In this document: positions 10,927 to 45,100 of the stretch, piece after piece
Layout: each line of letters starts with the position of its first letter
Position numbering within the stretch: position 1 is the stretch's first letter
Origin: an uncultured Bacteroidales bacterium
Lineage (GTDB): Bacteria; Bacteroidota; Bacteroidia; Bacteroidales; F082
Direction: 5' to 3'
Length of the DNA: 64,000 nucleotides
Assembly: GCA_946185535.1 (NCBI GenBank)
Contig: CAMHJX010000012.1
Coordinates: 1-64,000 of the forward strand
Made by a program: the position numbers and the translations under genes
The notes under the pieces: generated by a model
Seen by the model: the letters and a program-made list of their open reading frames with translations, nothing else
Told to the model about the DNA's origin: nothing
Database searches by the model: none

Positions 10927-10944
10927 AAGATGATAGTTTATCTT
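10927..10944 (+). promoter_or_regulatory. Possible operator of the toxin-antitoxin pair
   Basis: Imperfect palindrome AAGAT-N8-ATCTT just downstream of the predicted transcription start. Type II antitoxins usually repress their own promoter through such sites. The role is inferred from position and symmetry. Confidence 0.4.
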
Positions 10945-10973
10945 CCAGCTATTATAATATAGGAGAGTTTATT

Positions 10974-11174
10974 ATGGCAACCATCACATTAACCACGAAG
11001 AATCAGTTTGAGTATGATGCTGTTATTGCTTTTCTGAAAGCGTTGAAAATTAGATGTAAGATTTCTGATAATACGGCTAACAATGAGGCTTTGGAAATAG
11101 CTCAAAGTGTAGAAGGCGTAAAAAACGGAACAATTGCGACAAGACCGTTGTCAGTATTATTAAAGGAATTATGA
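10974..11174 (+). CDS. Small antitoxin-like protein (DUF2683-like)
   Basis: 66-residue protein beginning MATITLTTKNQFEYDAVIAF, resembling the small DUF2683-type partners of RelE/ParE toxins in Bacteroidota. Its stop overlaps the toxin start by four bases (ATGA), typical translational coupling. A strong Shine-Dalgarno AGGAGAG (10961-10967) precedes the start, unusual for this genome and suggestive of recent acquisition. It is expected to neutralise the toxin and repress the operon. Confidence 0.7.
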   Translation: MATITLTTKNQFEYDAVIAFLKALKIRCKISDNTANNEALEIAQSVEGVKNGTIATRPLSVLLKEL

Positions 11175-26435: not shown

Positions 26436-26852
26436 TTACTTATTCTTGTTTTCGCACAGTTCGGTCAGCACGCCAAAGGTCGATTTCGGGTGCAGGAAGG
26501 CGATGCTCAAGCCCTCAGCGCCCGGACGCGGAGCCTGGTCGATGAGGCGGATGCCCAATCCCTTGGCTTCTTCAAGATGGCCTTCGATGTTCTCCACGGC
26601 AAAGGCGATATGGTGCATGCCACCGCGACCGTTGTTGTTCTCGATGAACTTGGCGATGGTACTTTCAGGGCTGGTGGGCTCCAAAAGCTCGATTTTGGTC
26701 TGGCCGCAGCGCAAGAAAGCGGTCTTCACTTTCTGGTCGGCGACTTCTTCGATGGCGTAGCACTTGGTGCCAAGCAATTTTTCAAAGAAAGGAATGGACT
26801 CGTCCAAGCTCGTGACAGCGATTCCAATGTGTTCAATGTGAGATGGTTGCAT
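26436..26852 (-). CDS. mce: Methylmalonyl-CoA epimerase
   Basis: 138-residue vicinal-oxygen-chelate fold enzyme that interconverts (R)- and (S)-methylmalonyl-CoA, supplying the decarboxylase. Typical motifs: HIEHIGIAVTSLDESIPFFE, GRGGMHHIAFAVEN, and C-terminal PKSTFGVLTELCE, with metal ligands in H-x-G-I, H-H and E. First gene of the propionate operon. Confidence 0.93.
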   Translation of the reverse strand: MQPSHIEHIGIAVTSLDESIPFFEKLLGTKCYAIEEVADQKVKTAFLRCGQTKIELLEPTSPESTIAKFIENNNGRGGMHHIAFAVENIEGHLEEAKGLGIRLIDQAPRPGAEGLSIAFLHPKSTFGVLTELCENKNK

Positions 26853-27015: not shown

Positions 27016-27969
27016 TTAATTTGATAATATACCAAGAGAATTGAGGTCGTTTGCAAAATCAGTGGAAAATCTGTCTGTCGCCTCTGGATTCATGTGAACT
27101 GAGACACAAAAATTCAAGGTGTCGTCGCACAAGGGGTAGTTTTCGGTATAATTCAAATACTTAAATCCATATTTCTGGGCAATGCTATCAAAATAGTGGT
27201 TTAGTTTATCCAAGTCACTCACTTTTTTGGTGGTTTGGGAATACACTGGGGAATTGACTAGCAACACGTATACACCATCTTTTTTGCACTCGTCAAGGTA
27301 TCTTTCAAACAAAGCAGTCGCCCTTTCATTCATCAATATATTAATGGAATCCATTGACGCTGCATTTGTTCCATTCCACTTTCCTCTCTCTGGACTAAAG
27401 CCTTTATATGTTGGCCTCTCTACATAATGCTTTATTCCCAAAAACTCAAGCAAGCCATCTTTGATCACCTTTTGATAGCCATTGTACCTGTACAACGGGC
27501 AATACAATTCCCAAAAGCCATACCCCAACTGCCTCAATTCTTTGCGCATGGTTTTATCATAAACTGTTGGGAAAAAGCGTTCGGAATCATGTTGGTGTCT
27601 GATGTCGTCTTCCATATTCAGAGTCATAAAATCAACTTGCTGGACGATTGTTTTTGGCGTTCCGTTATGCGCTTTATAGCAGTGGTATTCGGAAATTTGT
27701 GCATTAATGGCATAGCCTCCCAATCCCAAATCGTATGAATTAACATGACAAATGGAATCGATAATCCGTGGATTAAAATGCGAGAAACCTCTTGAATTAC
27801 CCATGATGAGCAAATCATAGTCCAAATTGTCTTTGAAAATCTCGTTGAACACCTGATATCTATAGCAATCCGTCCGACGAAGTCCCATGCTGATCATAAA
27901 GTCTAGTGCAATAGCTAAAGACAATACTAATAATCCGAATCCTAAAGACTTAATGATGAACTTACGCAT
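27016..27969 (-). CDS. Membrane-anchored SGNH-like protein, MBOAT partner 3
   Basis: 317 residues with one N-terminal membrane helix (IIKSLGFGLLVLSLAIALDF) and a large extracytoplasmic domain. SGNH-hydrolase-like blocks are seen: LLIMGNSRGFSHF (block I, Asn in place of Asp) and a C-terminal SVHMNPEATDRF with the block V histidine. In alginate and peptidoglycan O-acetylation such proteins (AlgJ/AlgX/PatB type) receive an acyl group from the MBOAT and pass it to a glycan. It follows its MBOAT by 3 bases. The protein diverges strongly from the other two partners and its DNA is AT-richer than the MBOAT genes. Confidence 0.65.
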   Translation of the reverse strand: MRKFIIKSLGFGLLVLSLAIALDFMISMGLRRTDCYRYQVFNEIFKDNLDYDLLIMGNSRGFSHFNPRIIDSICHVNSYDLGLGGYAINAQISEYHCYKAHNGTPKTIVQQVDFMTLNMEDDIRHQHDSERFFPTVYDKTMRKELRQLGYGFWELYCPLYRYNGYQKVIKDGLLEFLGIKHYVERPTYKGFSPERGKWNGTNAASMDSINILMNERATALFERYLDECKKDGVYVLLVNSPVYSQTTKKVSDLDKLNHYFDSIAQKYGFKYLNYTENYPLCDDTLNFCVSVHMNPEATDRFSTDFANDLNSLGILSN

Positions 27970-27972
27970 AAC

Positions 27973-29421
27973 TCAGAATTGGAAATATATGAAATTGGTG
28001 GCATGGCCTCCGAAGGCAAACAAGACAAACAGCAAGGCAAGATAGATTGACCATCTCAAATAGCTTTTTTTGATTGATGACAAGTCCAATATAAAAGGCT
28101 TGTCGCGCTGAATCCATTCCACAACAATTAACAATAAGATATTAAAGCCCAATGCTGTATAACCTTTCGCAGCAGGAAAGGTGAATAGACTACGATTACA
28201 TATTCCACATAGATACTCCCAAGTTTGTCCGATGCTTTCCGCCCTGAAGATAATCCATCCAATCACCGCCAAGAAGAAAGTCAAAAGCATTTGCCCGACC
28301 TCTTTGAGAGAAGGCAACCATCTTCCTTCAGCCACTTGATTTGTGTATTTGCGATTTTTGCCAGTCAAAATCAACGGCAAGAAAAGGATGGCGTGATAGG
28401 CTCCCCAAGCGATGAAGGTCCAATTGGCGCCATGCCAGAAGCCGCTCACAAGGAAGATGATGAAGGTGTTTCTGATGACCTTTGCTTTCGATACACGGCT
28501 TCCGCCCAATGGGATGTAGACATAATCTCGGAACCATGTCGTGAGCGAGATGTGCCACCTGCGCCAGAACTCAGCAATGTCCCTGCTGAAATACGGCACG
28601 TTGAAGTTGCGCATCAATTTGACACCGAACAACTTCGCCGTTCCGATGGCAATGTCTGAATAACCCGAGAAGTCGCCGTAGATTTGGAAAGTGAAAAAGA
28701 TAGCGGCAAGCAGCAAGGTGCTTCCTGTTTGCTCCGTGTAGGTCGAGAACACTAGGTCTACATACACCGCGCAGTTGTCGGCCACCACAATTTTCTTGAA
28801 CAGGCCCCATAGTATCTGTCGCATGCCATCGGCGGCGTTGTCGTAGTTGAATTCGCGCTTTTTCAGGAACTGCGGTAAGAGGTTCGTCGCGCGCTCGATA
28901 GGGCCGGCCACCAGTTGAGGGAAGAAGGAAATGAAAGCGAAGAAAGCCACGATGTCCTTGGTGGGCTCAATCTTGCCCCGAAAGACATCGATGGAGTAGG
29001 AAAGGGCTTGGAAGGTGTAGAAGGAGATGCCTACTGGGAGAATCACTTTCAGCAACAAGCCATCAGTGGAGATGTTGAATATTTCGGCAAACTCGGTGAC
29101 GAAGAAGTCGTAGTACTTGAATAATGCCAAAATACCAAGATTCAGCACGATATTCAGCCACATCCAGGTTTTGGCTTTTTTCTTCGAATCGGCATTTCCG
29201 ATGAGTATTCCGCTTCCCCAGGAACAGAAAGAAGTAAAAGCAATCAACAGCAAAAAACGCCAATCCCACCATCCGTAGAACACATAACTTGCCACCACAA
29301 CAAAGGCGTTTTGCAAACGCAACTGCCACTTCGACTTGCTGATGAAGCGGTCGAACACGAACCAATAGAGCAGGAAGACTATCGGCAAGAATATCGCGAA
29401 CTGGATGGAGTTGAAGAGCAT
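27973..29421 (-). CDS. MBOAT-family O-acyltransferase, copy 3
   Basis: 482-residue polytopic membrane O-acyltransferase (AlgI/DltB-like) that would carry acyl groups across the inner membrane. It contains RDIAEFWRRWHISLTTWFRDYVYIPLGG and the catalytic-histidine motif FWHGANWTF (about residue 329), and ends in NFIYFQF. The first 406 residues are about nine-tenths identical by eye to copy 2 (30343-31815), while the last 76 are unrelated. It abuts the upstream SGNH gene without a spacer. Confidence 0.92.
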   Translation of the reverse strand: MLFNSIQFAIFLPIVFLLYWFVFDRFISKSKWQLRLQNAFVVVASYVFYGWWDWRFLLLIAFTSFCSWGSGILIGNADSKKKAKTWMWLNIVLNLGILALFKYYDFFVTEFAEIFNISTDGLLLKVILPVGISFYTFQALSYSIDVFRGKIEPTKDIVAFFAFISFFPQLVAGPIERATNLLPQFLKKREFNYDNAADGMRQILWGLFKKIVVADNCAVYVDLVFSTYTEQTGSTLLLAAIFFTFQIYGDFSGYSDIAIGTAKLFGVKLMRNFNVPYFSRDIAEFWRRWHISLTTWFRDYVYIPLGGSRVSKAKVIRNTFIIFLVSGFWHGANWTFIAWGAYHAILFLPLILTGKNRKYTNQVAEGRWLPSLKEVGQMLLTFFLAVIGWIIFRAESIGQTWEYLCGICNRSLFTFPAAKGYTALGFNILLLIVVEWIQRDKPFILDLSSIKKSYLRWSIYLALLFVLFAFGGHATNFIYFQF

Positions 29422-30330
29422 TTATAATCCGAAATCTTTTTTTACACGCAAAGCAAACATATCGGCACCTACGGAATTCAGGTGGGAACTATTACGATAA
29501 ATTGAATCAGCACGATATTCTTCATCTTGTAGGTAATCCATGTATTCAACGGGATACTCTGAACGAACATCATCTATAATTCCATGCAAAATATCAAGGC
29601 CTTCCTGCCTGACGTTAGCAATGTATGATGCATGACAAGGAGGTGTAATGACAATAAAACGAACCTTGTGAAGATGACACAACCTTGCCATGTCTTTTAA
29701 ATACCCCGTGTATTCCGCTACTTGTTCTTTGGCGTATTCTAGGCGAAACACATTTGAGTCTACATTGTGTTCCAATTGCCAGTTAACAGATTGACCATCA
29801 ACACGCTCATAGCCTAATGAATCACATAATAGATTATTACCAATCAGGGTGCTAGGGTCAATAAAACCTCTATACAGGCCTAGCCAATGGTTTGAATTGT
29901 CATCGTATCGAATATGCATGTATTTCTCGTACATATACTTTTCATGTTCGTTGTTTTCATGCTCTTTATCGTCTGTTTTTGGGAAATGGTATGATTTAAA
30001 AAACGGAGGCTTATAGCCCATCCCAAAGATTACTTGTTTTAAATTGGGCATGTCGGCAATATACTTTTCCAACAATTTATCGTCATAATAAATCCATCGG
30101 GAAGAACTGGCCAAAGTAAAAGCCCCTTCTCCCATCAAGCTAGGGTTGATGGCATTTTCAATATAGGAATCCCCCAATAGCAAAGTTACCACTTTATGAC
30201 GACGGTTTTCCATATACCAATACTTGTATGAATAATTGTTGTCAACTTGTGACTGAAAGTACTCCACAATGCCGCAAAACACAAAAAAAGCAATACCTCC
30301 TATAGCTAAAGCCCCAAGAAACCGTTTCAT
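29422..30330 (-). CDS. Membrane-anchored SGNH-like protein, MBOAT partner 2
   Basis: 302 residues: an N-terminal membrane helix (FLGALAIGGIAFFVFCGIVEYF), then an SGNH-like domain with LLLGDSYIENAI (block I) and YRNSSHLNSVGADMF (block V histidine). It probably accepts an acyl group at the serine and transfers it to a surface polymer. It lies between MBOAT copies 2 and 3 in the same transcription unit. The sequence is not closely similar to the other two partners, suggesting different acceptors. Confidence 0.68.
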   Translation of the reverse strand: MKRFLGALAIGGIAFFVFCGIVEYFQSQVDNNYSYKYWYMENRRHKVVTLLLGDSYIENAINPSLMGEGAFTLASSSRWIYYDDKLLEKYIADMPNLKQVIFGMGYKPPFFKSYHFPKTDDKEHENNEHEKYMYEKYMHIRYDDNSNHWLGLYRGFIDPSTLIGNNLLCDSLGYERVDGQSVNWQLEHNVDSNVFRLEYAKEQVAEYTGYLKDMARLCHLHKVRFIVITPPCHASYIANVRQEGLDILHGIIDDVRSEYPVEYMDYLQDEEYRADSIYRNSSHLNSVGADMFALRVKKDFGL

Positions 30331-30342
30331 GGCATTTTTGTT

Positions 30343-31815
30343 TTAGAATTGAAAATAAATAAATTGAGCATGTTTTCCTCCATAAATCATTATCAAGATT
30401 AACAATATAGCATAGATTATAGGTCTAAGATATTTGTTACGAAGGAAGTACAATTTGTCTATTCCTTCAAATCCATGCTGTTTATTCCGCTGTAACCACT
30501 CAATAACCAGCATAATCACAACGAATAAATTCGTCAGCCGTAATTCTGTCAAGGTGAAAAACCGGTAGAATGCCCTCAGTGTACCAAACTGCATCATTCC
30601 GCATAAATACTCCCAAGCTTGCCCAATGCTTTCTGCCCTGAAAATGATCCACCCGAGCACCGCCAAGAAGAAAGTCAAAAACATTTGCCCAATCTCTTTG
30701 AGCGAAGGAAACCATCTTCCTTCAGCCACTTGGTTCGTGTATTTGCGGTTCTTTCCTGTCAATATCAACGGAAGGAATAAGATAGCATGGTAGGCTCCCC
30801 ACGCAATGAAGGTCCAGTTGGCGCCATGCCAGAAGCCGCTCACAAGGAAAATGATGAAGGTGTTTCTGATGACTTTTGCTTTCGATACACGGCTTCCGCC
30901 CAAGGGGATGTAGACATAATCTCGGAACCATGTCGTCAACGAGATGTGCCACCTGCGCCAGAACTCTGCGATGTCACGGCTGAAATATGGCACGTTGAAG
31001 TTGCGCATTAGTTTGATTCCGAAGAGCTTGGCCGTACCTATGGCGATGTCGGAATAACCAGAGAAGTCACCATAGATTTGGAAAGTGAAAAATATTGCTG
31101 CAAGGAGCAGGGTGCTTCCACTTTGTTCCGTATAGGTTGAGAATACTTTGTCGACAAAAACCGAGCAGTTGTCGGCTATCACCATTTTCTTGAACAGACC
31201 CCAAAGTATCTGCCACACTCCGTCAACAGCGGTGCTATAGTCAAACTTCCTTTTTTTCAAAAATTGAGGAAGTAAGTTTGTCGCCCGCTCGATAGGACCG
31301 GCAACCAATTGAGGGAAAAATGAAATGAATGCGAAGAAAGCCACGATGTCCTTGGTGGACTCAATCTTGCCTCGGTAGACGTCGATGGAGTAGGATAGGG
31401 CTTGGAAAGTGTAAAATGAGATGCCTACAGGGAGTATCACTTTCAACAATAAGCCATCCGTGGAGATGTTGAATAGCTCGGCAAACTCTGAGACGAAGAA
31501 GTCGTAGTATTTAAAAATGGCCAAAATGCCAAGGTTGAGGATGATATTCAGCCACATCCATGTCTTTGCCTTTTTCTTGGTCTCGGCTTTGCCTATCAGC
31601 AATCCACTGCCCCATGAGCAAAAAGAGGTAAAAGCAATCAACAACAGGAAACGCCAATCCCACCAGCCATAAAACACATAACTAGCAACCACCACGAATG
31701 CATTCTGCAAACGCAACTGCCACTTTGATCTGCTGATGAAGCGGTCGAACACAAACCAATAAAGTAAAAACACTATTGGTAGAAAAATAGCGAACTGTAT
31801 AGAGTTGAACAGCAT
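30343..31815 (-). CDS. MBOAT-family O-acyltransferase, copy 2
   Basis: 490-residue MBOAT protein with the same RRWHISLTTWFRDY and FWHGANWTF (about residue 329) motifs and C-terminal QFIYFQF. Residues 1-406 match copy 3 almost throughout; the last 84 residues differ completely. The tail is also AT-richer than the conserved part. The mosaic suggests a recent duplication in which the C-terminal end, adjacent to its SGNH partner gene, was exchanged. Confidence 0.92.
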   Translation of the reverse strand: MLFNSIQFAIFLPIVFLLYWFVFDRFISRSKWQLRLQNAFVVVASYVFYGWWDWRFLLLIAFTSFCSWGSGLLIGKAETKKKAKTWMWLNIILNLGILAIFKYYDFFVSEFAELFNISTDGLLLKVILPVGISFYTFQALSYSIDVYRGKIESTKDIVAFFAFISFFPQLVAGPIERATNLLPQFLKKRKFDYSTAVDGVWQILWGLFKKMVIADNCSVFVDKVFSTYTEQSGSTLLLAAIFFTFQIYGDFSGYSDIAIGTAKLFGIKLMRNFNVPYFSRDIAEFWRRWHISLTTWFRDYVYIPLGGSRVSKAKVIRNTFIIFLVSGFWHGANWTFIAWGAYHAILFLPLILTGKNRKYTNQVAEGRWFPSLKEIGQMFLTFFLAVLGWIIFRAESIGQAWEYLCGMMQFGTLRAFYRFFTLTELRLTNLFVVIMLVIEWLQRNKQHGFEGIDKLYFLRNKYLRPIIYAILLILIMIYGGKHAQFIYFQF

Positions 31816-31873
31816 TAATTCACAGTTTAAAATACAATCTCAACAAGGCAGGCGTTTTGAGTGAAATTGAATG

Positions 31874-31881
31874 CAAAAATA
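31874..31881 (-). promoter_or_regulatory. Possible internal promoter before MBOAT copy 2
   Basis: TATTTTTG on the minus strand in the only sizeable gap (91 bases) of the MBOAT/SGNH series. No well-spaced -33 element. Confidence 0.35.
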
Positions 31882-31906
31882 GGCAAAAAACCAATATGAT
31901 ACATAG

Positions 31907-32842
31907 CTAATTCATACAATAGTCTACTGCATACTGCAATTGCAATCCATCTCGTACAATATGCTCACCGAAATACCGGGCTCCTTTGGCATTTAAATGT
32001 TCCAAATCTCTGTAATACGTTGAATCAGGAACTTTAAAACGAGTGTATTCAGCTACCAGTGTACTATCCCCTAACTCCGAACAAATCAACTGCCGATATC
32101 CTTTATCGCTCACCATATCTGGGATTTTGTAAGTTGGAGTGTTGAAAATAATCAGTGTCTGTTGATGGGCATCACAATACTCTTTAATTTTACGGAGATT
32201 GTTAAGTTGGTATGTGAAATGAGTCTTAAGATATTCTTCGGAAAGTAAACCTTGGTCGCCATATTCCTTTGAACGCTCAATTGCTAAGTTGATATGATCG
32301 TATGCAATGGGATTATTGATTTCATTACTATTGTCAGCTTCATAACCTCCATCAACACCTTTGTAGGCATCAAAGTTATTATATGGAAAAGAAACAAGGA
32401 TGTATTCCCAATAATCCCTTAGATGTTTGAAGTTGTCAAAAAATACAGGATAGGTCAGCACATTTCTTTTTTCTTCTTTCCATTTTAAGAGCATCGTAGG
32501 CTTGTCCACCTCATCATAAAAATAGACCAAAGACAGCAAACCTGCAGAGAGAATGACGGTATCTGGTTTGTTTTCATTGAATTCGGTTGCCCATTTCAGA
32601 TTGTTCAGCGCTCCACCAAAGGTCATAGCTGATGCACAGAGATTTTTCGAATTAGGGATAATACTATCGTTCCAATCAGCCATTCCTACCGATCCTCCCA
32701 AAACAATGGTATGTATATCCTTGTCAAGGATGTTCCTTTCCATGATTCGCGGCGTTACTAGAATCCATGCTATCCGGATACAAGCAATAGCCAAGATGAG
32801 AAACAGCCAAAAAAAACAAAACAGTTTGATAAACCTTTTCAT
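31907..32842 (-). CDS. Membrane-anchored SGNH-like protein, MBOAT partner 1
   Basis: 312 residues from the ATG at 32842 (MKRFIKLF...), chosen because it matches the start of partner 2 and leaves 10 bases after the MBOAT stop; an ATG at 32848 is also possible. N-terminal membrane helix (LFCFFWLFLILAIACIRIAWI), block I VLGGSVGMADWND and block V RDLEHLNAKGARYFGEHI with the Asp-x-x-His pair. This partner keeps the full DxxH dyad, unlike the other two. Confidence 0.68.
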   Translation of the reverse strand: MKRFIKLFCFFWLFLILAIACIRIAWILVTPRIMERNILDKDIHTIVLGGSVGMADWNDSIIPNSKNLCASAMTFGGALNNLKWATEFNENKPDTVILSAGLLSLVYFYDEVDKPTMLLKWKEEKRNVLTYPVFFDNFKHLRDYWEYILVSFPYNNFDAYKGVDGGYEADNSNEINNPIAYDHINLAIERSKEYGDQGLLSEEYLKTHFTYQLNNLRKIKEYCDAHQQTLIIFNTPTYKIPDMVSDKGYRQLICSELGDSTLVAEYTRFKVPDSTYYRDLEHLNAKGARYFGEHIVRDGLQLQYAVDYCMN

Positions 32843-32852
32843 AGTCATTGAA

Positions 32853-34322
32853 TTAGAATTGGAAATAAACAAACTCTGCATTGGCACTCGCACTAAAAAT
32901 CACAATGGCCAAAGCCAGCAACATGTCGAGGAAGACAACCCTAAAGGTCTTGCTTGTGTAATCTTTAGACACACGTTGTATGGCAAATTCTTTGTTTCTG
33001 GTAAACCACTCCAAAATCAACAGTACCACAATAGCTAAGATGGAATACCACGAAAGCAATGAGAAAGGATTGACGAATGACCAATCTCCATTTATCATAC
33101 ATTTGAAAAGCCGGATGATGGATGGTACTCCAGCGGAGAAGATGATAATATGACCCAAAGCCATCAGGAGATGGGTTCCAATCATCCCTAAAAAGTCCTT
33201 AAACTGTATGCATCCCCATCGGCCAGGCTTGAGCTTTTTGTTCTTCCCAAACTTTCCACTGAGAATGAGCGGCAAGAACAGCAAACTGTGGTACACTCCG
33301 AATAAGACATAGGTCCAATTCGCCCCGTGCCACATGCCAATCACCACAAGGTTGATACTGATGGCAAGGAAGATTCCCAAATTGCCCCAATTGCGGAACC
33401 TGACATTGAGCGGCATGAATACATAGTCTGTGATCCAACCCGTTAGGGAAATATGCCAACGGCGCCAGTATTCTGACACGTTGCGTGCCAACAGCGGATG
33501 GTCAAAGTTCTTCGTGATGTTGAAGCCCAAAATCTTGCCCACGCCAATGGCCATGTTGGAGTATCCGTCAAAATCGGCATAGACTTGTATTGGCGATAAC
33601 AAGGCAGCGTAAATCAGGTACCAAGAGGTCTTTTCTGGATAAAGAGACCAAGCGCCATGCGTAATTACTGCTATACTGTCGGCTATGACCATCTTGGTGA
33701 AGATACCCCAAAGTATCTGCTGGCAGCCGTCCATGGCCAGGTTGTAGTTGAATTGGTGAGCTTGGCGCAACTGGGGAAGGAACTTTCCAGGACGGTCGAT
33801 AGGACCTGCCATGATGGTGGGGAAGAAGGCAATATAAGTGGCAAACTCCAGAAAGCTCTCGCTGGGCTGGATCTTCTCGCGATGGATCTCTATCACATAG
33901 CTGATGAGCTTGAAAGTGAAAAAGCTCACACCAACGGGAAGGACAATGTTCAGCGTGGACCAACTGACATGTAATCCAATGGCATTAAGTAGTTTAGCGA
34001 AAGAACCAGCAAAGAAGTTCAGGTACTTGAAATAGAACAAGAGCCCTATGCCCAACACGACACCTAAAGTGGTGAAGCGTGAGGCTGCTTTTGCATTGCC
34101 ACGGTCAATGGCCTTGCGGATGAATCCACCTAAAAACCAAAATGCCACTGTTATAGCCAATAGGATAGGAAGCATCTTCCAATCCACAAAGCCATAGAAG
34201 AAATAACTGGCAAGCAATAGCCATAGGTTCTGCCGGGTGTGACGCTGTCGCATCCACGGCAGGAAATAAACCAAGAAGACTACTGCAAAAAAGGCTAAGA
34301 ACCTAAAAGAGTTGATAACCAT
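32853..34322 (-). CDS. MBOAT-family O-acyltransferase, copy 1
   Basis: 489-residue MBOAT protein, a distant paralogue of copies 2 and 3. It has NVSEYWRRWHISLTGWITDYVFMPLN, the histidine motif MWHGANWTYVLFG (about residue 331) and C-terminal EFVYFQF. It lies 3 bases after the acyl carrier protein gene, which suggests that the carrier delivers the acyl group directly to this transporter, as D-alanyl carrier DltC does to DltB. Confidence 0.92.
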   Translation of the reverse strand: MVINSFRFLAFFAVVFLVYFLPWMRQRHTRQNLWLLLASYFFYGFVDWKMLPILLAITVAFWFLGGFIRKAIDRGNAKAASRFTTLGVVLGIGLLFYFKYLNFFAGSFAKLLNAIGLHVSWSTLNIVLPVGVSFFTFKLISYVIEIHREKIQPSESFLEFATYIAFFPTIMAGPIDRPGKFLPQLRQAHQFNYNLAMDGCQQILWGIFTKMVIADSIAVITHGAWSLYPEKTSWYLIYAALLSPIQVYADFDGYSNMAIGVGKILGFNITKNFDHPLLARNVSEYWRRWHISLTGWITDYVFMPLNVRFRNWGNLGIFLAISINLVVIGMWHGANWTYVLFGVYHSLLFLPLILSGKFGKNKKLKPGRWGCIQFKDFLGMIGTHLLMALGHIIIFSAGVPSIIRLFKCMINGDWSFVNPFSLLSWYSILAIVVLLILEWFTRNKEFAIQRVSKDYTSKTFRVVFLDMLLALAIVIFSASANAEFVYFQF

Positions 34323-34325
34323 CGA

Positions 34326-34568
34326 TTATTGCTTTTTGGCAATGATTGAATTCACCATCTCGCCCACATTGTTCCACTTCATGATCTCAAGAGAAGTGAA
34401 CTTGATTCCAAAGGCTTTTTCGATGGCCACAATCAACTGGATATGGCTCAGGGAGTCCCATTCCTCGATGTCGTCGGCAACGGAAGCATCAGTAAGGTGC
34501 ACCTCGTCTAAATCCAGCACGTCACAAAAGATTTCGTTGAGTTTTTCGTAAATTTCAGATCTTTCCAT
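34326..34568 (-). CDS. Dedicated acyl carrier protein
   Basis: 80-residue acidic helical carrier with the phosphopantetheine site EEWDS39LSHIQL. It is more divergent than the fatty-acid ACP and lies inside the FkbH/MBOAT cluster, so it is expected to carry a special short acyl group rather than fatty-acid chains. Confidence 0.88.
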   Translation of the reverse strand: MERSEIYEKLNEIFCDVLDLDEVHLTDASVADDIEEWDSLSHIQLIVAIEKAFGIKFTSLEIMKWNNVGEMVNSIIAKKQ

Positions 34569-34597
34569 AACTATTTAATATTTTGATTCTTATTCAT

Positions 34598-35563
34598 TTA
34601 TAACGATTGTAATTTGTATTTGATGTCTTCAGCAATCAATTCGGGCGAGAGCCTGTGCTGATGCATCACATAATCATAATCACCAGGCTTGGAGAAACGG
34701 TCTTTGACACCCAATTTCAAGAGTGGGGGATAGCCTCCCTCCTCAGCCAAAACGTCTGCAATGGCAGTGCCAAGACCGCCAACTATGTTGTGCTCTTCAG
34801 CCGATATGATCAACTTGCAGTTCTTGGCTTCTCTAACAGACTCGGTATCAAATGGTTTCAATGAATGGACATCCACAAGCCGTGTTTCTATGCCTTGTTG
34901 AGACAGGATTTCGGCGGCTTGGACGGAATAGCCAGTGCAAGCACCTGTGGTAAAGAGACAGACATCCTGACCTTCACGGAGTATATTGTTTTTGCCAATG
35001 GTAAACGGGCAAGTCTCATGATAAACCGTAGGAGCTTGCGAGCCCCCTGTGAGTCGGATGTAAACCGGACCTGGGCAATTTAATGCAGCCTCAAAGGCCA
35101 TGACGGCTTCGCCCGCATCTGCGGGAGACAAGACCGTCATTCCAGGAATCTGGCGCATGATGGCCAGGTCTTCTATGCAGTAGTGAGTGTTGCCAAAGTA
35201 TTGGAGATAGAAGCCTGAATTCAAACCGACAAGGATAACCTTGTTTTGCATATAGCCTAAATATTGGCGGTCCATCTCGTAGGCTCGCATAGTAATGAAG
35301 GCGGCTTGGGCAACGGCCACACATGTATAGCCTTCTGAGGCCATGCCAGCAGAAATGCCCACAAGGTTTTGCTCAGCTATGCCTAATTCGGTGAATTTTT
35401 CGGGGCTTTGATAAATAAAACGGTCAAGGCTGGCTGCCACCGACATGTCGGCGGAGAGCACTTGTACATTGGGATACTCCTCGATATGGTCAGGCAAATA
35501 CATCCCAAATATGGCCGCAGCCTGTCCGGAGCCAGCATATTGTTGAACATTCATATTAGCCAT
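34598..35563 (-). CDS. Transketolase-like, C-terminal subunit
   Basis: 321 residues covering the pyrimidine-binding and C-terminal domains of transketolase (ADMSVAASLDRFIYQSP, ELGIAEQNLVGISAGMA with the catalytic glutamate, RLTGGSQAPTVYHE, SAEEHNIVGGLGTAI). It pairs with the N-terminal subunit encoded just upstream (8-base overlap). Split transketolases of this kind are common in secondary or glycan pathways, where they move a two-carbon ketol unit. Confidence 0.88.
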   Translation of the reverse strand: MANMNVQQYAGSGQAAAIFGMYLPDHIEEYPNVQVLSADMSVAASLDRFIYQSPEKFTELGIAEQNLVGISAGMASEGYTCVAVAQAAFITMRAYEMDRQYLGYMQNKVILVGLNSGFYLQYFGNTHYCIEDLAIMRQIPGMTVLSPADAGEAVMAFEAALNCPGPVYIRLTGGSQAPTVYHETCPFTIGKNNILREGQDVCLFTTGACTGYSVQAAEILSQQGIETRLVDVHSLKPFDTESVREAKNCKLIISAEEHNIVGGLGTAIADVLAEEGGYPPLLKLGVKDRFSKPGDYDYVMHQHRLSPELIAEDIKYKLQSL

Positions 35564-36389
35564 TCTCTACCTCCTCTCCTAAATCTTTTAGCGCCTTTTG
35601 GTAACGGGCCTCGTTTAGGCTGCTGTGATGCCATTTGGCTTTGTTTTCGATAAATGAAACGCCTTTGCCCTTCACTGTTTCTGCTATGATGGCCATTGGA
35701 CGGCCGTTTGGCTGTTGACTAAAAGCGTCGTATAACTCACTCACAGAATGCCCATCTACCTGAATAACATCGAACCCAAAAGCTTTCAGTTTGTCTTCAA
35801 GCGGGGCGGTGTTCATCACTTCCTCGATAGTGCCATCGGCCTGAAGGTGATTGTGGTCTATGATGATGGTGAGATTGTCAAGACGGTTGTGTCCGGCAAA
35901 CATCAGTGCTTCCCAGATCAGGCCTTCATTCATTTCACCGTCTCCGATGAGGGTATATATATGGTTGTCAAGGCCTTTGCGCTTGCAGGCATGGGCAACG
36001 CCAACGGAATATGAGGTGCCAAGGCTTAGGCTGCCTCCAGAGAAATCCAAACCTCTCGATAAATTCCGTTTGGCATGGGCTACTATGTCACTACCGTTCT
36101 GCTCAAAAGAGTCGAGGTCTGCTTTGGTCATGATTCCGCATTCATACAAAGTGCAGTAGTGTGCCAAAGCGGCGTGACCCTTACTCAGGATGACCCTGTC
36201 ACGATGCTCCATATCGTTTTTGTCGAAGGAGACAAAGCAGGAATATAGTACTGCCAATATCTCAACAGGGGAGAGGCTGCCTCCAAAGTGGGCACCATTC
36301 TTGCCTGCCAAATATCCAGTGCGTATGATATCCACCCGAATCTTTTTGGCAAGCTGCTCCAATTGATTTGTTAACTCTTTGTCGATCAT
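35556..36389 (-). CDS. Transketolase-like, N-terminal subunit
   Basis: 277 residues forming the thiamine-diphosphate domain: HFGGSLSPVEILAVLY, SKGHAALAHY, TPP-binding GDGEMNEGLIWEALMFAGH...DHNHLQADG, and KGKGVSFIENKAKWHHS. It would form an alpha2beta2 enzyme with the next gene. The start overlaps the end of the MaoC gene by four bases (ATGA). Confidence 0.88.
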   Translation of the reverse strand: MIDKELTNQLEQLAKKIRVDIIRTGYLAGKNGAHFGGSLSPVEILAVLYSCFVSFDKNDMEHRDRVILSKGHAALAHYCTLYECGIMTKADLDSFEQNGSDIVAHAKRNLSRGLDFSGGSLSLGTSYSVGVAHACKRKGLDNHIYTLIGDGEMNEGLIWEALMFAGHNRLDNLTIIIDHNHLQADGTIEEVMNTAPLEDKLKAFGFDVIQVDGHSVSELYDAFSQQPNGRPMAIIAETVKGKGVSFIENKAKWHHSSLNEARYQKALKDLGEEVENG

Positions 36390-36808
36390 TTCAATAATCC
36401 TATCTGCACATGGCCTTTGGCGACAAGCTCGGGCTTGACGCCATCACTTATGCGCCTGAATTTTAGTTTAAACTCAATGATTCCAACAGCCTCGGAAACG
36501 GTATCCACTGTGGCCTCAAGGGCAATTTGGTCATTCAGAAACACGGGCTTGTGGAAACTGATGTCCTGACTCTGAATCATCACCTCCTTCGTCGGAAGCA
36601 GCATCCCCACAAAGTGGCTGATAAAGGCGTTCAAGATGTTGCCGTACATCACGCAATCGTTAAAGCCTTTGCTTTGGGCAAAAGCCACGTCGGTGTGTAA
36701 CGGGTTGAAGTCGCCACTGCATAACTGGAACGCATGGTACACTTCAGGAGTCACCTGATAAGTGTGTTCTATTTTCCCTGTTTGTTCTGCTAATTCGGCA
36801 ATTGTCAT
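36386..36808 (-). CDS. MaoC-like (R)-hydratase/dehydratase
   Basis: 140-residue hot-dog-fold protein with the hydratase-2 motif FQLCSGD33FNPLH38TDVAFA containing the catalytic Asp and His. Members hydrate or dehydrate enoyl/3-hydroxyacyl thioesters. Position between FkbH and transketolase genes suggests it works on an ACP-bound intermediate here; that is inference. Confidence 0.85.
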   Translation of the reverse strand: MTIAELAEQTGKIEHTYQVTPEVYHAFQLCSGDFNPLHTDVAFAQSKGFNDCVMYGNILNAFISHFVGMLLPTKEVMIQSQDISFHKPVFLNDQIALEATVDTVSEAVGIIEFKLKFRRISDGVKPELVAKGHVQIGLLK

Positions 36809-36811
36809 AAC

Positions 36812-38554
36812 TTATTCATTAGCAACAATAAAACACTCGCGCGGTTGATAGTTCTCCAAATCAAGTACCCATTGGGCAGTTGGGCTGCCCTCTATGGGTT
36901 TGAAACCAAGTTCTGGATAATGCAATGCCACCATGCCATTCTTAGGCGTTGGCAGGTATTCTCCTATGATTCGCTTGTATCCCTTTGACTTGGCAATCTC
37001 CACCATGGTGTTCAAAGTGAAATTCTCTACACCACGTTTCAATACCCTGCAGCTCATCAACCAAGTATCCACAAAGAGTGTTTCTTTGTCCTGCGGCTTC
37101 ATGATGATGACAGCGATCAAGCCATTGTCGCCAAACTTATCCTGTAAGGTGAAGCTCAGGTCAATCACTTCTGTATCCGATGCGAATGATTCGATGTCGG
37201 CATCAGTGTATCGGACAGTACGCAAATTAAACTGGTTACTCCTTTGGGTAAGTTGTGCGACACGGGGTGTGTTGAATTTGGTGAAACCGCTAACGACAGA
37301 AACCATATCCAAAGATTTGAGGAAGTCAGCTTCATTGGTGAAAGTCTTGCTCAGCGACACGCGTTGAGCCTCTACCTGATATTGCTTCGTGCGGTCTTTG
37401 TCGGCAGAACTGTAGCTGGCTGTCTCGAAAAGATTCAGCCCATAAAGGTATTCCAAGTAATCAGCAGGGTCTTCGGGCAACTCGGGCACGGTGATGCCTT
37501 TGATGTTTTCGCGTACAATATTCCGTTCGAAGGGGTTGTCATCCAAGAACACCATGCTATCAAAGCTGATGTTCAAAATGCTTTGAATGGTACGTATATT
37601 GTCGACTTTGGTCTCCCAATTGGCTTGGAACACAGCAATGTCGTCCAGCTTGAGCACCATGTCAGGATGCTTCTCAAAGGGTTCCTTTGCAGTCTCTTCA
37701 TTGTTCTTCGAGGCTACGCAAATGATAATACCACGCTGCTTGAGCTTCTTGACCCACATCTGGAACTCAGTGAAAGCCTTGCCAATGCCTAATCCATGAC
37801 CTAGCTGGATGCCTTCAAGTCCATCGTCGCCTATCACGCCACCCCATACCGTGTTGTCAAGGTCCAAAATGAGGCATTTCTTGAATTGTCCCTTCACGGC
37901 ACAGATGATGTCCATCACGCGACCTGCTACATAAGGCAAAACATCCATGCTTAACACCATTTCTGTGCTGGTGTAAACATTAGCGGCAAACATCGTATCA
38001 CGCCCCAACTTGTTTTGCAGCGCTGCAATATCGCAAATAAAGAGGTTGGGGTACTGTTGTGACAAATCCATCAGTCCACAATTCAACCGCCTCACTTGCC
38101 ATGTCAACGATTGTGGCACATGGTTGGCATAGCTGCCAAACACGGCATCGTCTATCTCAGGATAGTTGAAATAGATGATTTTTTTGCCTTCGAGGGCAGG
38201 GTTGGAACAGACGGAGGTAACGAAATTGAGTCGGTCCTCTGCCATAGTGGTCTGTTGTTCCGAACTGAGCATCGCGTGGTTTTCGCCAAGCTTGTGCGTA
38301 CTTTGAAACAATACGATAAAGTCCGCATTAAACTCATAGAATTCACTTGTTGGGTCAAGTAGTTCTCTCTCTATTTGATTGTATTCTGCCTCGTAAAGGT
38401 CGATATTATAGCCTCGCTCCACGCCGGTTCCTTGGATGGCTGTGGCAAGAAACTGCGTTGCTGTATCTCCCAGCAGAGCCACTTTTATCAAGGGAAGAGC
38501 ACTCAAGTCTGATTTCAACAGACGTTTCAGGGTTTTAAAGTCAGAAAATGGCAT
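36812..38554 (-). CDS. FkbH-like HAD-IIIC phosphatase / acyl-ACP loading protein
   Basis: 580 residues. The N-terminal 220 form the BF1531-like domain. The HAD motif CLILD231LDNTVWGGVIGDDG begins the catalytic core, followed by KNNEETAKEPFEKHP and VFLDDNPFERNIV. The C-terminal part (from about 400) resembles an acyltransferase-like (GNAT) domain. FkbH proteins take 1,3-bisphosphoglycerate and load a glyceryl group on an ACP in methoxymalonyl-ACP synthesis. By analogy this protein may load the carrier encoded at 34326. First gene of the cluster, 53 bases after gatD on the same strand. Confidence 0.85.
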   Translation of the reverse strand: MPFSDFKTLKRLLKSDLSALPLIKVALLGDTATQFLATAIQGTGVERGYNIDLYEAEYNQIERELLDPTSEFYEFNADFIVLFQSTHKLGENHAMLSSEQQTTMAEDRLNFVTSVCSNPALEGKKIIYFNYPEIDDAVFGSYANHVPQSLTWQVRRLNCGLMDLSQQYPNLFICDIAALQNKLGRDTMFAANVYTSTEMVLSMDVLPYVAGRVMDIICAVKGQFKKCLILDLDNTVWGGVIGDDGLEGIQLGHGLGIGKAFTEFQMWVKKLKQRGIIICVASKNNEETAKEPFEKHPDMVLKLDDIAVFQANWETKVDNIRTIQSILNISFDSMVFLDDNPFERNIVRENIKGITVPELPEDPADYLEYLYGLNLFETASYSSADKDRTKQYQVEAQRVSLSKTFTNEADFLKSLDMVSVVSGFTKFNTPRVAQLTQRSNQFNLRTVRYTDADIESFASDTEVIDLSFTLQDKFGDNGLIAVIIMKPQDKETLFVDTWLMSCRVLKRGVENFTLNTMVEIAKSKGYKRIIGEYLPTPKNGMVALHYPELGFKPIEGSPTAQWVLDLENYQPRECFIVANE

Positions 38555-38607: not shown

Positions 38608-39996
38608 TTATTTATGCACCTTACGGATAAACTCCTCCACCTCGGGCACTCCGCCTTGATAGACGAGGTAGCCGTTGTAAGGCTCTCTTGGGGTGATTTC
38701 GCTGTTGACTGGAGTGAGCATGATGTTCTTCACCTCTTCTCTGTCGTGCGTCTGACCCAAGGCCCAGCCCAACTTGATGTAGGCGGTCTCGGCGAGCATG
38801 TTGCCAGCGGGGATGATGCCTCTATCCATCAGGTCACGGCCAGTGTCGTAGACGAACATGTGGGCATAGCCCCAGATGGTCTGCACGGTCATGTACTGAT
38901 GCACACCCTTGTCGGTGGCACGCTGGATGGCGTCGAACATGCCACGGTTGACGTGACCCAAGCCCGTGCCGTCCCAAACGATGCCCTGATAGCCGTTGTC
39001 GACCAAGGCGTCAAGCACATCGGGCTTCATGCCAGGATAGTAGTAAAGGATGGCCACGCGGTCGTCGAAGGTCGGGATGATTTTCACGTCGCGGTCGTTG
39101 CGGCGGTGGTTGTAGACCTCCTTGATCGGCACAACTCCACGCTTGCGGTCGACTGTAGCGACAGGCGTGTCGCCGATGGTACGGAAGGTGGAACGATATG
39201 AGGAGTGCATCTTACGCACACGTGTGCCACGGTGCAGGAAGCCGTACTCATCGGAGGTGGGGCCAAACATGCAGACCATCACCTCTGCAACGTCACCGTG
39301 ACCGGCAGCGGTCATGGCATGCATCAGGTTCAAGGCGGCGTCGGATGACGGACGGTCTGACGAACGCTGCGAGCCGACCAACACAATCGGCACAGGCAGG
39401 TTCTGGCACATGAAGGTCAGGGCAGCGGCGGTGTGGGCCAGCGTGTCGGTGCCGTGGCCGATGACGATGCCGTCGATGCCGTTCTGGATTTCCTCGCCAA
39501 TCTTCTTGGCCAGGGCGATGTATTCCTTGGGCGACATGTTCTCGGAGAACACGGCAAACACCTTCTCGGTGTCGAGGTTGCAGATGTCGGCCAGCTCTGG
39601 CACGGCACCATACAACTCACCAGGTGAGAAGGCGGGAATCACAGCGCCGGTACGGTAGTCCAAACGCGAGGCGATGGTACCACCTGTGCCGAGCAGCTTC
39701 ACATGCGGAAGTCCCTCGGTATAAGGGAATTCCTTCTCGGGGATGTGGTAGTTGGCTTTCTTGTAGTCGGTCTCGACCATGCTCGTGATGGTGCTGATGT
39801 CGACGCCGATATTATAGCCTGTGTTGACCTTCATGACGATGTGTTGATCGTCTTGGAAGGCGGCGCGAGGCAGGATCGTGCCTTTGAAGAGGCCACCCGT
39901 GGTCTGGCACTCAGCCTGACTCCACACGCGGCAGTTATATTTCTTGAGCACCTCAAGAGAGGCACCCCAATATCCTTGGAAAAAATCTTCAGCCAT
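38608..39996 (-). CDS. gatD: Glutamyl-tRNA(Gln) amidotransferase subunit D (archaeal type)
   Basis: 462-residue asparaginase-like subunit that releases ammonia from glutamine or asparagine. The N-terminal about 90 residues form the small beta-barrel found in GatD but not in plain asparaginases. The catalytic motifs are TGGT107IASRLDYRTGAV (the YRTGAV extension is diagnostic of GatD), HGT183D184TL and GSQRSSDRPSSDA. It lies 8 bases after gatE. GatDE is regarded as archaea-specific, so its presence here is notable. A stand-alone asparaginase is unlikely given gatE. Confidence 0.9.
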   Translation of the reverse strand: MAEDFFQGYWGASLEVLKKYNCRVWSQAECQTTGGLFKGTILPRAAFQDDQHIVMKVNTGYNIGVDISTITSMVETDYKKANYHIPEKEFPYTEGLPHVKLLGTGGTIASRLDYRTGAVIPAFSPGELYGAVPELADICNLDTEKVFAVFSENMSPKEYIALAKKIGEEIQNGIDGIVIGHGTDTLAHTAAALTFMCQNLPVPIVLVGSQRSSDRPSSDAALNLMHAMTAAGHGDVAEVMVCMFGPTSDEYGFLHRGTRVRKMHSSYRSTFRTIGDTPVATVDRKRGVVPIKEVYNHRRNDRDVKIIPTFDDRVAILYYYPGMKPDVLDALVDNGYQGIVWDGTGLGHVNRGMFDAIQRATDKGVHQYMTVQTIWGYAHMFVYDTGRDLMDRGIIPAGNMLAETAYIKLGWALGQTHDREEVKNIMLTPVNSEITPREPYNGYLVYQGGVPEVEEFIRKVHK

Positions 39997-43994: not shown

Positions 43995-44014
43995 CAGCCT
44001 GAAACATATTGGAA

Positions 44015-45100
44015 ATGGAAAACAAATGGTTAAGCGAAGCCTTCAAAGGCGAGGTGCCAAGCGACTTTCAAGGCAAGGTGGGCTGGCAAAGTCCGTCGAA
44101 CATCGCTTTGGTGAAATATTGGGGTAAAAGAGGTAAGCAAATCCCTCAAAATCCATCGATTAGTTTTACCTTGTCGGAATGTCGTTCTGAGACATTCATC
44201 AGTTTTGAAAAAGCCGACCGTTTCGGATTCAGATTCTTCTTTGAGGGCAAGGAGAATTCCGCTTTCGGCACGAAAATCGAGAAGTTCCTGCTCGACAACC
44301 AAGCGTTTTTCACGTTCATCAACCAACTAAATCTGAAAGTCGAGAGCCGCAATACTTTCCCGCATTCCTCAGGCATTGCCTCGTCGGCTTCTTCGATGAG
44401 TGCTTTTGTGATGTGTTTGCTTGACATCGAATCCAAGTTGGTCGGCCCTTCGACAGGCTCAGGGTCCTTAGATTTATGCAAGGCTTCTTACCTCTCGCGA
44501 TTGGCCTCGGGTAGTGCGGCACGCTCGGTGTATCCAGAAATGGCACTTTGGGGGACAACGGACTGCTACAAAGATAGTTCTGATGAATATGCCGTTTCGT
44601 TGGCAGATGACATTCATTCCGTTTTCAAAACCTACCGCGACAGCATTTTGATTGTCAGCGGTGAACAAAAATCCGTTTCCAGTCGTGCTGGTCATGCCTT
44701 GATGGAAGGCAATCCCTATGCCTCGGCGCGTTATGTACAAGCGAACGATAACATTAAAACATTGCTTGCTGCCTTGAAATCGGGCGACTTGGACACCTTT
44801 ATTAATATAACGGAGTCGGAAGCCTTACAGCTTCACGCCTTGATGATGTGCTCCAACCCATCCTATATCTTGATGAAACCCAATACAATGAATCTTGTCA
44901 ACGAAATTCGGGAGTTTCGTCATGAAACCAATATCCCACTCTGTTTCACTTTGGATGCCGGCCCTAATGTGCATCTGCTCTATCCTGAAAGTGAAGTTGA
45001 AAAAGTGGAGTATTTCATCAAGAATGTTTTAGAGAAATATTGTGATCAAGGCCGTTGGATTGCCGATCAGGTGGGTGAGGGGCCGAAAAAACTACAGTGA
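44015..45100 (+). CDS. mvaD: Diphosphomevalonate decarboxylase
   Basis: 361 residues from the ATG at 44015 (an in-frame TTG at 44009 is unlikely). GHMP-fold enzyme making isopentenyl diphosphate from mevalonate diphosphate with ATP. Family motifs: SPSNIALVKYWGKRG, FPHSSGIASSASSMSAF, LASGSAARSVYPEMALW and TLDAGPNVHLLYP. Residues about 143-152 (VGPSTGSGSL) come from an inserted dispersed DNA repeat between two helices of the fold. The stop overlaps the next start by one base. Confidence 0.93.
   Translation: MENKWLSEAFKGEVPSDFQGKVGWQSPSNIALVKYWGKRGKQIPQNPSISFTLSECRSETFISFEKADRFGFRFFFEGKENSAFGTKIEKFLLDNQAFFTFINQLNLKVESRNTFPHSSGIASSASSMSAFVMCLLDIESKLVGPSTGSGSLDLCKASYLSRLASGSAARSVYPEMALWGTTDCYKDSSDEYAVSLADDIHSVFKTYRDSILIVSGEQKSVSSRAGHALMEGNPYASARYVQANDNIKTLLAALKSGDLDTFINITESEALQLHALMMCSNPSYILMKPNTMNLVNEIREFRHETNIPLCFTLDAGPNVHLLYPESEVEKVEYFIKNVLEKYCDQGRWIADQVGEGPKKLQ
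44441..44467 (+). repeat. In-frame dispersed repeat inside mvaD
   Basis: GTCGGCCCTTCGACAGGCTC followed by AGGGTCC. It contains the 13-base core TTCGACAGGCTCA (44449-44461) that is identical to the core in wecB and is read in the same frame as S-T-G-S. Confidence 0.8.

Follow-up and report, generated by a model that had tools for sequence, protein, structure and literature searches.

Pairs of MBOAT and SGNH proteins work either with or without a carrier protein as acyl donor, the Dlt pathway using one and the other MBOAT/SGNH pathways having none; PatA acetylates the tyrosine of its own C-terminal hexapeptide, and DltX carries the same FXYXXF motif (PMC12148441; this and the other papers cited are drawn on in excerpt). 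Glyceryl and lactyl groups are known on bacterial exopolysaccharides, with no activating pathway named in the excerpts concerned (PMC4432689, PMC9737242), and in gellan an L-glyceryl and an acetyl substituent share one glucose (PMC9737242). DUF1574 was listed in a 2022 review among the SGNH families without known activity (PMC9487903). Here, we describe an eleven-gene operon at positions 27016–38554 of a 64,000-nucleotide stretch (hereafter the window) of contig CAMHJX010000012.1, from an uncultured Bacteroidales bacterium, that combines an FkbH-like protein and a dedicated acyl carrier protein (ACP) with three MBOAT/SGNH pairs. We consider it probable, with room for doubt, that the operon encodes a Dlt-like pathway that depends on a carrier protein and acylates an extracytoplasmic polymer; by analogy with characterized FkbH proteins, loading would probably proceed from 1,3-bisphosphoglycerate, with FkbH in place of an adenylating enzyme.

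Operon organization and the proposed pathway

All eleven open reading frames (ORFs) lie on the minus strand, none has an internal stop codon, and they follow the order FkbH, MaoC, TkN, TkC, ACP, MBOAT_A/SGNH_A, MBOAT_B/SGNH_B and MBOAT_C/SGNH_C, so that the tight same-strand cluster described in the initial annotation was borne out by the ORF check. The successive intergenic gaps are 3, -4, -8, 29, 3, -41, 91, 12, 0 and 3 bases. The -41 gap before SGNH_A arises because its longest ORF begins at a GTG codon; an internal ATG (residue 16 by hand count; position 32848) gives a 4-base gap instead, and the spacing first reported, -8 to 29 bases with a single 91-base gap, is correct if SGNH_A begins there. 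A promoter and terminator scan was uninformative (29 promoters versus a shuffled mean of 23.3; 10 terminators versus 11.6).

Ten of the operon proteins were scanned against Pfam and NCBIfam, and MBOAT_C was assigned through its 82% identity to MBOAT_B; the families found were FkbH_N with the FkbH domain, MaoC, Transketolase_N, Transket_pyr/Transketolase_C, PP-binding and MBOAT. The FkbH-like acyl-activating protein (36812–38554, 580 aa; FkbH_N plus HAD-IIIC/FkbH domain, with DLDNT at residue 231) scores above both curated cut-offs, with 288.4 bits for TIGR01686 (cut-off 146.65) and 288.7 bits for PF21211 (cut-off 27), and its only match in the PDB is 3slr, Bacteroides fragilis BF1531, deposited as uncharacterized. 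It is followed by a MaoC-type hydratase/dehydratase (36386–36808, 140 aa; PF01575, 54.4 bits; GDFNPLH), nearest in the PDB to the R-specific enoyl-CoA hydratase 1iq6, and by the two halves of a split transketolase-like thiamine diphosphate (TPP) enzyme: the N-terminal half TkN (35556–36389, 277 aa; PF00456, 118.5 bits) and the C-terminal half TkC (34598–35563, 321 aa; PF02779 and PF02780), from which the sugar-phosphate residues are gone. The dedicated ACP (34326–34568, 80 aa; PF00550, 37.6 bits; DSL at residue 38) has as its top PDB match 2lml, a putative ACP.

The MBOAT of the first pair, MBOAT_A (32853–34322; PF03062, 58.7 bits), ends in FVYFQF and is assigned by its clade and diagnostic columns to the ACP-linked lineage described below; its partner SGNH_A (31907–32893, with the likely start at 32848) carries GGS and DLEHLN and is recognized from these motifs and a profile match to SGNH_C. 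MBOAT_B (30343–31815; PF03062, 105.6 bits), with a core of the companion lineage and a C-terminal part of its own, and MBOAT_C (27973–29421), likewise of the companion lineage, both end in FIYFQF; their partners, assigned from motifs and relatives, are SGNH_B (29422–30330; GDS) and SGNH_C (27016–27969; GNS). All three MBOAT ends conform to FxYxxF, and WHGANWT with the conserved MBOAT histidine is present in each. The motif check confirmed the YFQF ends and the H(L/M)N of all three partners. That all key motifs are intact held for these two and for DLDNT, DSL, GDFNPLH, GDG...N and WHGANWT, but failed for the aspartate of D-x-x-H in SGNH_B and SGNH_C. The YFQF ends are no special trait of this locus: FxYxxF stands at the C-terminus of 76 of the 76 complete relative MBOATs and is the known acyl-shuttle hexapeptide (PMC12148441).

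From what is known of the protein families, FkbH would transfer a glyceryl group from D-1,3-bisphosphoglycerate to the private ACP, and MaoC would remove the 3-hydroxyl of glyceryl-ACP to leave 2-hydroxyacryloyl- or pyruvoyl-ACP. The split TPP enzyme, with its sugar-phosphate site lost, would act on an ACP-bound or other unphosphorylated acceptor. MBOAT_A is predicted to accept the acyl group of the ACP on the tyrosine of its own C-terminal FVYFQF, from which SGNH_A would take it to esterify a surface glycan. For the companion pairs MBOAT_B/SGNH_B and MBOAT_C/SGNH_C, the acyl group is more likely an ordinary one, acetyl from CoA, and would go to the same surface polymer or to related ones; their choice of acceptor would be set by the divergent C-terminal part of the MBOAT together with the SGNH partner. 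Candidate acyl groups for the ACP-dependent branch are glyceryl, lactyl or a TPP-extended hydroxyacyl.

Conservation of the core and exchange of tailoring genes

An FkbH scan of bacterial and archaeal genome contigs returned 287 relatives, and the loci of the best 80 (the closest loci) were analyzed. Within 4.5 kb of FkbH, an ACP was found in 75 of these 80 and an MBOAT in 73; downstream sequence reaches 4 kb or more in 70 loci, and among these the counts were 68 and 66. The HAD motif of FkbH was present in 80/80 and the ACP DSx motif in 75/75. In an even draw of the order (393 genomes), 18 genomes, the window's included, held FkbH at E ≤ 1e-180 and yielded 18 other places: locus L134, where both ACP and MBOAT are present, and 17 fetched loci, with an ACP in 15, an MBOAT in 14 and neither in L178. 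Together the closest and the order loci make a set of 97, 96 of them distinct. Core loci occur in Prevotella, Mucilaginibacter, Flavobacterium, Dysgonomonas and others, and on the plasmid of the alphaproteobacterium Rhodobacteraceae SC52 (L141) genes for an ACP, FkbH, an MBOAT, a hypothetical protein and a vicinal oxygen chelate (VOC) protein are adjacent; the gene set is therefore not confined to Bacteroidota. A dedicated FkbH-ACP supply beside MBOAT/SGNH genes, as first proposed, is thus borne out by conservation in Bacteroidota and on one alphaproteobacterial plasmid, and chance clustering of the operon genes was rejected, the relatives holding the core together. The co-occurrence search also showed which part of the proposed set is not shared: FkbH, ACP and MBOAT recur together, but the split transketolase is present in only 4 of the 80 closest loci.

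The closest named relatives are the Bacteroidia/Bacteroidales metagenome-assembled genomes RUG11691 and RUG245 (FkbH 97–98% identical), in whose names RUG presumably stands for rumen. In the family of the window's genome, FkbH matches at E ≤ 1e-60 occur in 17 of 173 genomes, the window's included; only four others exceed 50% identity (56 to 98%), a partial match with an in-frame stop in genome G076 among them, and the remainder lie at 34–41%. The operon itself is therefore patchy, while the core is widespread. In G076, which belongs to the window's genus, locus L117 (contig 1, about 8386–10991) holds an FkbH relative 79% identical over residues 18–284, interrupted by one in-frame stop and flanked by short SGNH-like remnants only, apparently a decaying copy. 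More distantly, FkbH relatives appear in 40 Sinorhizobium plasmid records; the neighborhood is known for one, L140 on pSymB of S. meliloti 1021, where the relative (34% identity) has an MBOAT-like gene (128 bits) beginning about 3 kb upstream.

The tailoring genes beside FkbH and ACP are exchangeable: MaoC plus a short-chain dehydrogenase/reductase (SDR), VOC, a methyltransferase or, rarely, the split transketolase. With bit cut-offs of 120 for SDR, 45 for VOC and 100 for methyltransferase, 40 of the 97 loci have none of MaoC, SDR, VOC, methyltransferase and transketolase, and 33 of those 40 hold ACP and MBOAT; VOC stands alone in 22 and MaoC with SDR alone in 19 (L026 counted). Pfam searches of one or two representatives each identified the VOC proteins as Glyoxalase_4, the methyltransferases as Methyltransf_23, the SDRs as adh_short and the MaoC proteins as MaoC_dehydratas. 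An SDR accompanies MaoC in 18 of the 20 MaoC loci of the closest 80. The two without it, L020 (where the sequence ends 661 bases after FkbH) and L021, belong to the window's lineage, which has the split transketolase where other MaoC loci have the SDR; L090 has an SDR without MaoC, and L044, L069 and L134 have MaoC, SDR and transketolase together. The combination of FkbH, dehydratase and reductase in relatives suggests conversion of glyceryl to lactyl, presumably in the manner of the bryostatin loading module. It is a fair guess that the VOC protein is a glyceryl-ACP epimerase, since VOC proteins include methylmalonyl-CoA epimerase. Downstream of the operon, the gene at 26436–26852 was considered as a VOC tailoring gene and rejected: it scores above the cut-off of the methylmalonyl-CoA epimerase equivalog (154 bits, cut-off 115), and decarboxylase-like genes come after it.

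The initial annotation had also included the two-part transketolase, as a putative loader of two-carbon units onto the ACP. This finds no support as stated: the pair lies outside the conserved core, and the two-carbon idea is weaker than that of the core. Its residues speak against a usual sugar-phosphate transketolase. The four closest loci that contain it include two of the window's own lineage, with L134 in addition, and the idea that the pathway has the transketolase at its conserved center was rejected on that count. A search of the 393 order genomes found the pair at seven places in six genomes (E ≤ 1e-72), the window's included. At L134 (genome G523, contig 4) it adjoins FkbH, MaoC, SDR, ACP and MBOAT; at the five remaining places, an AMP-binding protein was found at 5/5 and an ACP with an SDR at 4/5, where Pfam covered selected genes and the L137 stretch begins inside TkN. 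Four of these places (L135, L136, L138 and L139) show SDR-TkN-TkC with an ACP and an AMP-ligase and without FkbH in the stretch fetched, with LuxE and LuxC in addition at L136 and KASIII at L135; judged by gene content, a TPP pair of this kind may serve another ACP pathway there. In Hoylesella marshii (L069, 9950–16009), FkbH-MaoC-TkN-TkC-SDR-ACP is followed by an acyltransferase-3 protein (PF01757, 72.7 bits) in the place of the MBOAT, and another family of membrane acyltransferases may thus be fed by the same kind of ACP.

The residue comparison relies on human transketolase numbering and on roles in phosphate or hydroxyl binding and proton transfer, including those of the TkN histidines, which we take to be correctly assigned. 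Among ten aligned TkC proteins of the clade (L101 was excluded, its chosen ORF not being the transketolase), the equivalents of human R318, H416, D424 and R474 are kept in none and that of S345 in one (L069); the R318 column is less sure because L136 and L137 have an arginine close by. The window's TkC has A, A, N, F and G at the positions of R318, S345, H416, D424 and R474, and the other split transketolase of the same genome keeps all five sugar-phosphate residues (with one column of slack at R474). Retained in the operon's pair are the TPP motif GDG...N, the equivalent of Glu366 and the four TkN histidines that align with those of human transketolase. On this pattern of residues, the split pair can be read as a TPP enzyme acting on an unphosphorylated, probably ACP-bound partner.

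MBOAT lineages, SGNH partners and alternative explanations

The MBOAT tree comprised 133 rows (131 different, the pairs L095/L176 and L116/L193 being identical) and left out proteins shorter than 431 or longer than 559 aa. Its 32 non-ACP rows, taken from short stretches that showed no ACP, mostly derive from the MBOAT_C search, so that sampling is uneven. MBOAT_A falls in a clade of 75 rows (SH-aLRT 100) made up of 71 ACP-adjacent rows, 3 others from FkbH loci and the window's own, with 0 of the 32 non-ACP rows; all members of this clade thus come from FkbH loci. MBOAT_B and MBOAT_C belong to a mixed group of 16 rows (SH-aLRT 92), five of which are non-ACP rows. Outside the operon's own relative, the nearest protein to their cores, 79–80% identical, is that of L187 in genome G110, a member of the window's genus with no FkbH match at E ≤ 1e-60. 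At 15 diagnostic columns, chosen as conserved on both sides with the five mixed-clade rows excluded from the non-ACP set, the letter of the ACP clade is present 13 times in MBOAT_A and twice each in MBOAT_B, MBOAT_C and L187; DltB of PDB 6bug has the ACP-clade letter at 7 of these columns and the other letter at 1. The claim of three modules on one supply therefore has partial support, MBOAT_A lying in the FkbH-only clade and MBOAT_B and MBOAT_C in a mixed group with few of the diagnostic letters, and feeding of all three MBOATs by the ACP was demoted to a rival reading after the tree and column analysis. The same genome contains a second array of three MBOATs (L111, G000 contig 40, 6507–15674), with long neighbors of about 440–590 aa; no ACP was found there, and its MBOATs group with the non-ACP MBOATs in the tree.

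SGNH_A, SGNH_B and SGNH_C have no Pfam match at E ≤ 0.01, and SGNH_B gives one weak NCBIfam match (TIGR02171, 31 bits, far below the cut-off); their SGNH identity is assigned because of their motifs and relatives. The serine and histidine are kept in all three, and the D-x-x-H aspartate is present in SGNH_A (DLEH) but replaced by asparagine in SGNH_B (NSSH) and by valine in SGNH_C (VSVH). In an alignment of 23 SGNH_C members, G-x-S and H-x-N are invariant, and DUF1574 is matched by 14 and Lipase_GDSL_2 by 7 at E ≤ 1, the window's SGNH_C being matched by neither. Compared as profiles, SGNH_A and SGNH_C match with a probability of 98.6%, and the best match of the SGNH_C profile among solved structures has an E value of 0.55.

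In L127, a close relative, modules B and C are separated by a fourth one. Across modules B, C and this extra one, MBOAT residues 1–400 are 86–93% identical, the remainder (about 85 residues) 34–39% and the SGNH proteins 17–21%; for MBOAT_B versus MBOAT_C, the values are 93% over residues 1–400 and 37% over the rest, with 18% between their SGNH partners. Orthologues in the relative keep 91–98% over MBOAT residues 1–400, 80–93% over the rest and 84–88% in the SGNH protein. The MBOAT_B core is closest to L187, and its C-terminal part matches best with Prevotella ACP-type pairs (60.1 bits), L187 coming second (58.9). Among 93 tested partners, a set that excludes the partners of the separately fetched non-ACP MBOATs, SGNH_B had 25 matches, the best ones and 23 in all being partners of ACP-type MBOATs. 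SGNH_C scored 159 bits with the L187 partner and 120 with the L084 protein; of the 93, 36 matched it, the highest at 111 bits. From these comparisons, the MBOAT core and the shuttle-plus-SGNH part seem to recombine, and we infer that the donor would be chosen by the MBOAT core and the acceptor by the remainder and the SGNH protein.

Several observations weigh against a Dlt-like pathway running from FkbH through MBOAT_A to a surface polymer. No glycosyltransferase was recognized beside the operon in the window's ORF list, inspected by eye. The operon lacks the SDR that elsewhere accompanies MaoC, so that the glyceryl-to-lactyl route is incomplete there, and 13 SDR matches in the window's genome, the best at 33% identity, offer no clear candidate. 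One order locus, L176, is identical to L095 of the closest 80, and the MBOATs of L180, L181 and L186 lie some kilobases off the ACP and group with non-ACP MBOATs in the tree. MBOAT_A is without the clade letter at 2 of the 15 diagnostic columns; the ACP-adjacent MBOATs of L089, L098 and L083 fall outside its clade, and those of L119 (1/15) and the plasmid locus L141 (2/15) have few clade letters, because of which the clade signature is not absolute. Finally, the approximately unbiased (AU) test fails to reject a grouping of MBOAT_B, MBOAT_C and two L021 rows with the clade (p 0.401).

That last result is compatible with an explanation we regard as possible, if doubtful, in which a single hydroxyacyl-ACP supplies all three MBOAT/SGNH pairs and the pairs differ only in their acceptor. 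It would fit the one tight operon, the reading of modules B and C as one core with altered acceptor parts (93% versus 37%, with 18% for SGNH), the fourth such module of the close relative and the preponderance of ACP-type partners among the tested relatives of SGNH_B; against it, the MBOAT_B and MBOAT_C cores are nearest to L187, from a genome lacking FkbH at the threshold used, and share its 2/15 letters, and SGNH_C scores higher with the L187 partner than with any tested partner or the L084 protein. An ordinary O-acetylation cluster, with FkbH, ACP and the other enzymes as chance neighbors in another role, appears highly improbable: acetyl-CoA or acyl-CoA is the donor for PatA and, in the authors' model, for other MBOAT/SGNH pairs (PMC12148441, in excerpt), and five other MBOATs of the genome stand without an ACP in the stretches fetched, but FkbH, ACP and MBOAT occur together in most of the 97 loci, across several genera.

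The split transketolase could be a metabolic enzyme giving triose to FkbH, the product being plain glyceryl or lactyl, since a transketolase can yield glyceraldehyde 3-phosphate, a precursor of 1,3-bisphosphoglycerate; we hold this to be improbable, as the sugar-phosphate residues are almost all lost in the ten compared clade members, the genome has another split transketolase that retains them, and clade members also occur away from FkbH, next to genes for ACPs, SDRs and AMP-ligases, in one case together with LuxE and LuxC and in another with KASIII. Still less probable is a small-molecule (secondary metabolite) pathway in which the MBOATs would serve for tailoring or export. FkbH is mainly familiar from the biosynthesis of polyketide and peptide antibiotics, but no polyketide synthase or nonribosomal peptide synthetase was recognized by eye in the window's ORF list, several relatives adjoin genes read as glycosyltransferases or other glycan genes (few of them family-scanned), and the studied MBOAT/SGNH pairs act on polymers, as excerpts of PMC12148441 describe.

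Genome context and comparison with known systems

The assembly measures 3.67 Mb in 86 contigs (93% complete); on contig 12, the operon is flanked upstream on the same strand by archaeal-type gatD and gatE and downstream by the methylmalonyl-CoA epimerase gene and the decarboxylase-like genes. In this Bacteroidales genome the GatDE pair, commonly considered archaeal, occupies 38608–39996 and 40005–41951 of the minus strand and scores above the cut-offs of the archaeal equivalogs (GatD TIGR02153, 498 versus 324 bits; GatE TIGR00134, 378 versus 319.55 bits), GatE falling just below that of a second model (432.5 versus 456 bits). The pair is also found upstream of FkbH in L020 and L021. Two adjacent plus-strand genes at 44009–46038 resemble those for diphosphomevalonate decarboxylase and mevalonate kinase, with scores (155 and 85 bits) under the respective equivalog cut-offs of 171 and 163.

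A search of open-licence full text, with most subscription papers and all patents outside its scope, gave among the matches listed no description of an FkbH-ACP-MBOAT system; FkbH and MBOAT were mentioned together, to judge by abstracts, only in work on cyanobacterial peptides. If the proposed pathway is true, the FkbH-ACP-MBOAT-SGNH route would be an activating pathway for glyceryl and lactyl surface groups, surface decoration would be tied to the level of a glycolytic intermediate, and Dlt logic would apply not just to amino acids but also to acids derived from glycolysis, in Gram-negative bacteria that include Prevotella of ruminants. DUF1574-like SGNH proteins and the 3slr protein (B. fragilis BF1531) would gain a candidate role as well, and the residues separating ACP-linked from other MBOATs would be a direct handle on donor choice in the superfamily.

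A broader reading, offered tentatively and in our judgment rather unlikely to hold, sees a widespread modular surface code fed from glycolysis, in which FkbH and ACP would provide a hydroxyacyl group, exchangeable cassettes would set its identity and ACP-type MBOAT/SGNH pairs would export it, the window then showing a donor-core swap that would leave two acyl groups in competition for related acceptors. MaoC with SDR would then give lactyl, VOC mirror-image glyceryl and the methyltransferase O-methylglyceryl; the TPP cassette would add a ketol unit to ACP-bound pyruvoyl, yielding a longer branched hydroxyacyl, and the swap would have placed a CoA-type MBOAT core before an ACP-type SGNH protein.

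Among described systems, FkbH/ACP glyceryl loading in tetronate and methoxymalonyl pathways shares FkbH, a stand-alone ACP and tailoring on glyceryl-ACP (PMC7489565, in excerpt). There, the glyceryl unit enters a polyketide; here, it apparently goes to an MBOAT. The loading module of bryostatin BryA, FkbH-DH-KR, which we take to form D-lactyl-ACP, has the same enzyme logic as the FkbH-MaoC-SDR set of the relatives, with the difference that the relatives' enzymes are stand-alone and in an MBOAT context, and that the operon itself has no SDR. Gellan likewise carries glyceryl on a bacterial polysaccharide, and the link to it is a prediction, the excerpts of PMC9737242 naming no glyceryl-transfer gene. 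The O-acetylation systems PatA/PatB and AlgI/AlgX resemble the operon in an MBOAT with C-terminal FxYxxF (shown for PatA) and an SGNH partner, and differ in that PatA uses acetyl-CoA and in having neither ACP nor FkbH (PMC12148441, in excerpt); judged by their sequences, MBOAT_B and MBOAT_C may be of this kind. The Dlt system for D-alanylation of teichoic acids (DltA, DltC, DltB, DltX, DltD) shares a private carrier protein, an MBOAT, the FxYxxF tyrosine and an SGNH protein as last enzyme. In contrast to Dlt, the operon has FkbH and no DltA, an AMP-binding match being absent from the ten scanned proteins; its shuttle motif is fused to the MBOAT, with no DltX, and tailoring enzymes stand beside the ACP. 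The operon is not a member of the Dlt family, because the scanned genes include no adenylating enzyme and the scores for the DltB equivalog TIGR04091 (168 bits for MBOAT_A, 171 for MBOAT_B) lie below the cut-off of 375. By comparison with these systems, a carrier protein combined with a fused shuttle motif would be a mixed form of the two known types.

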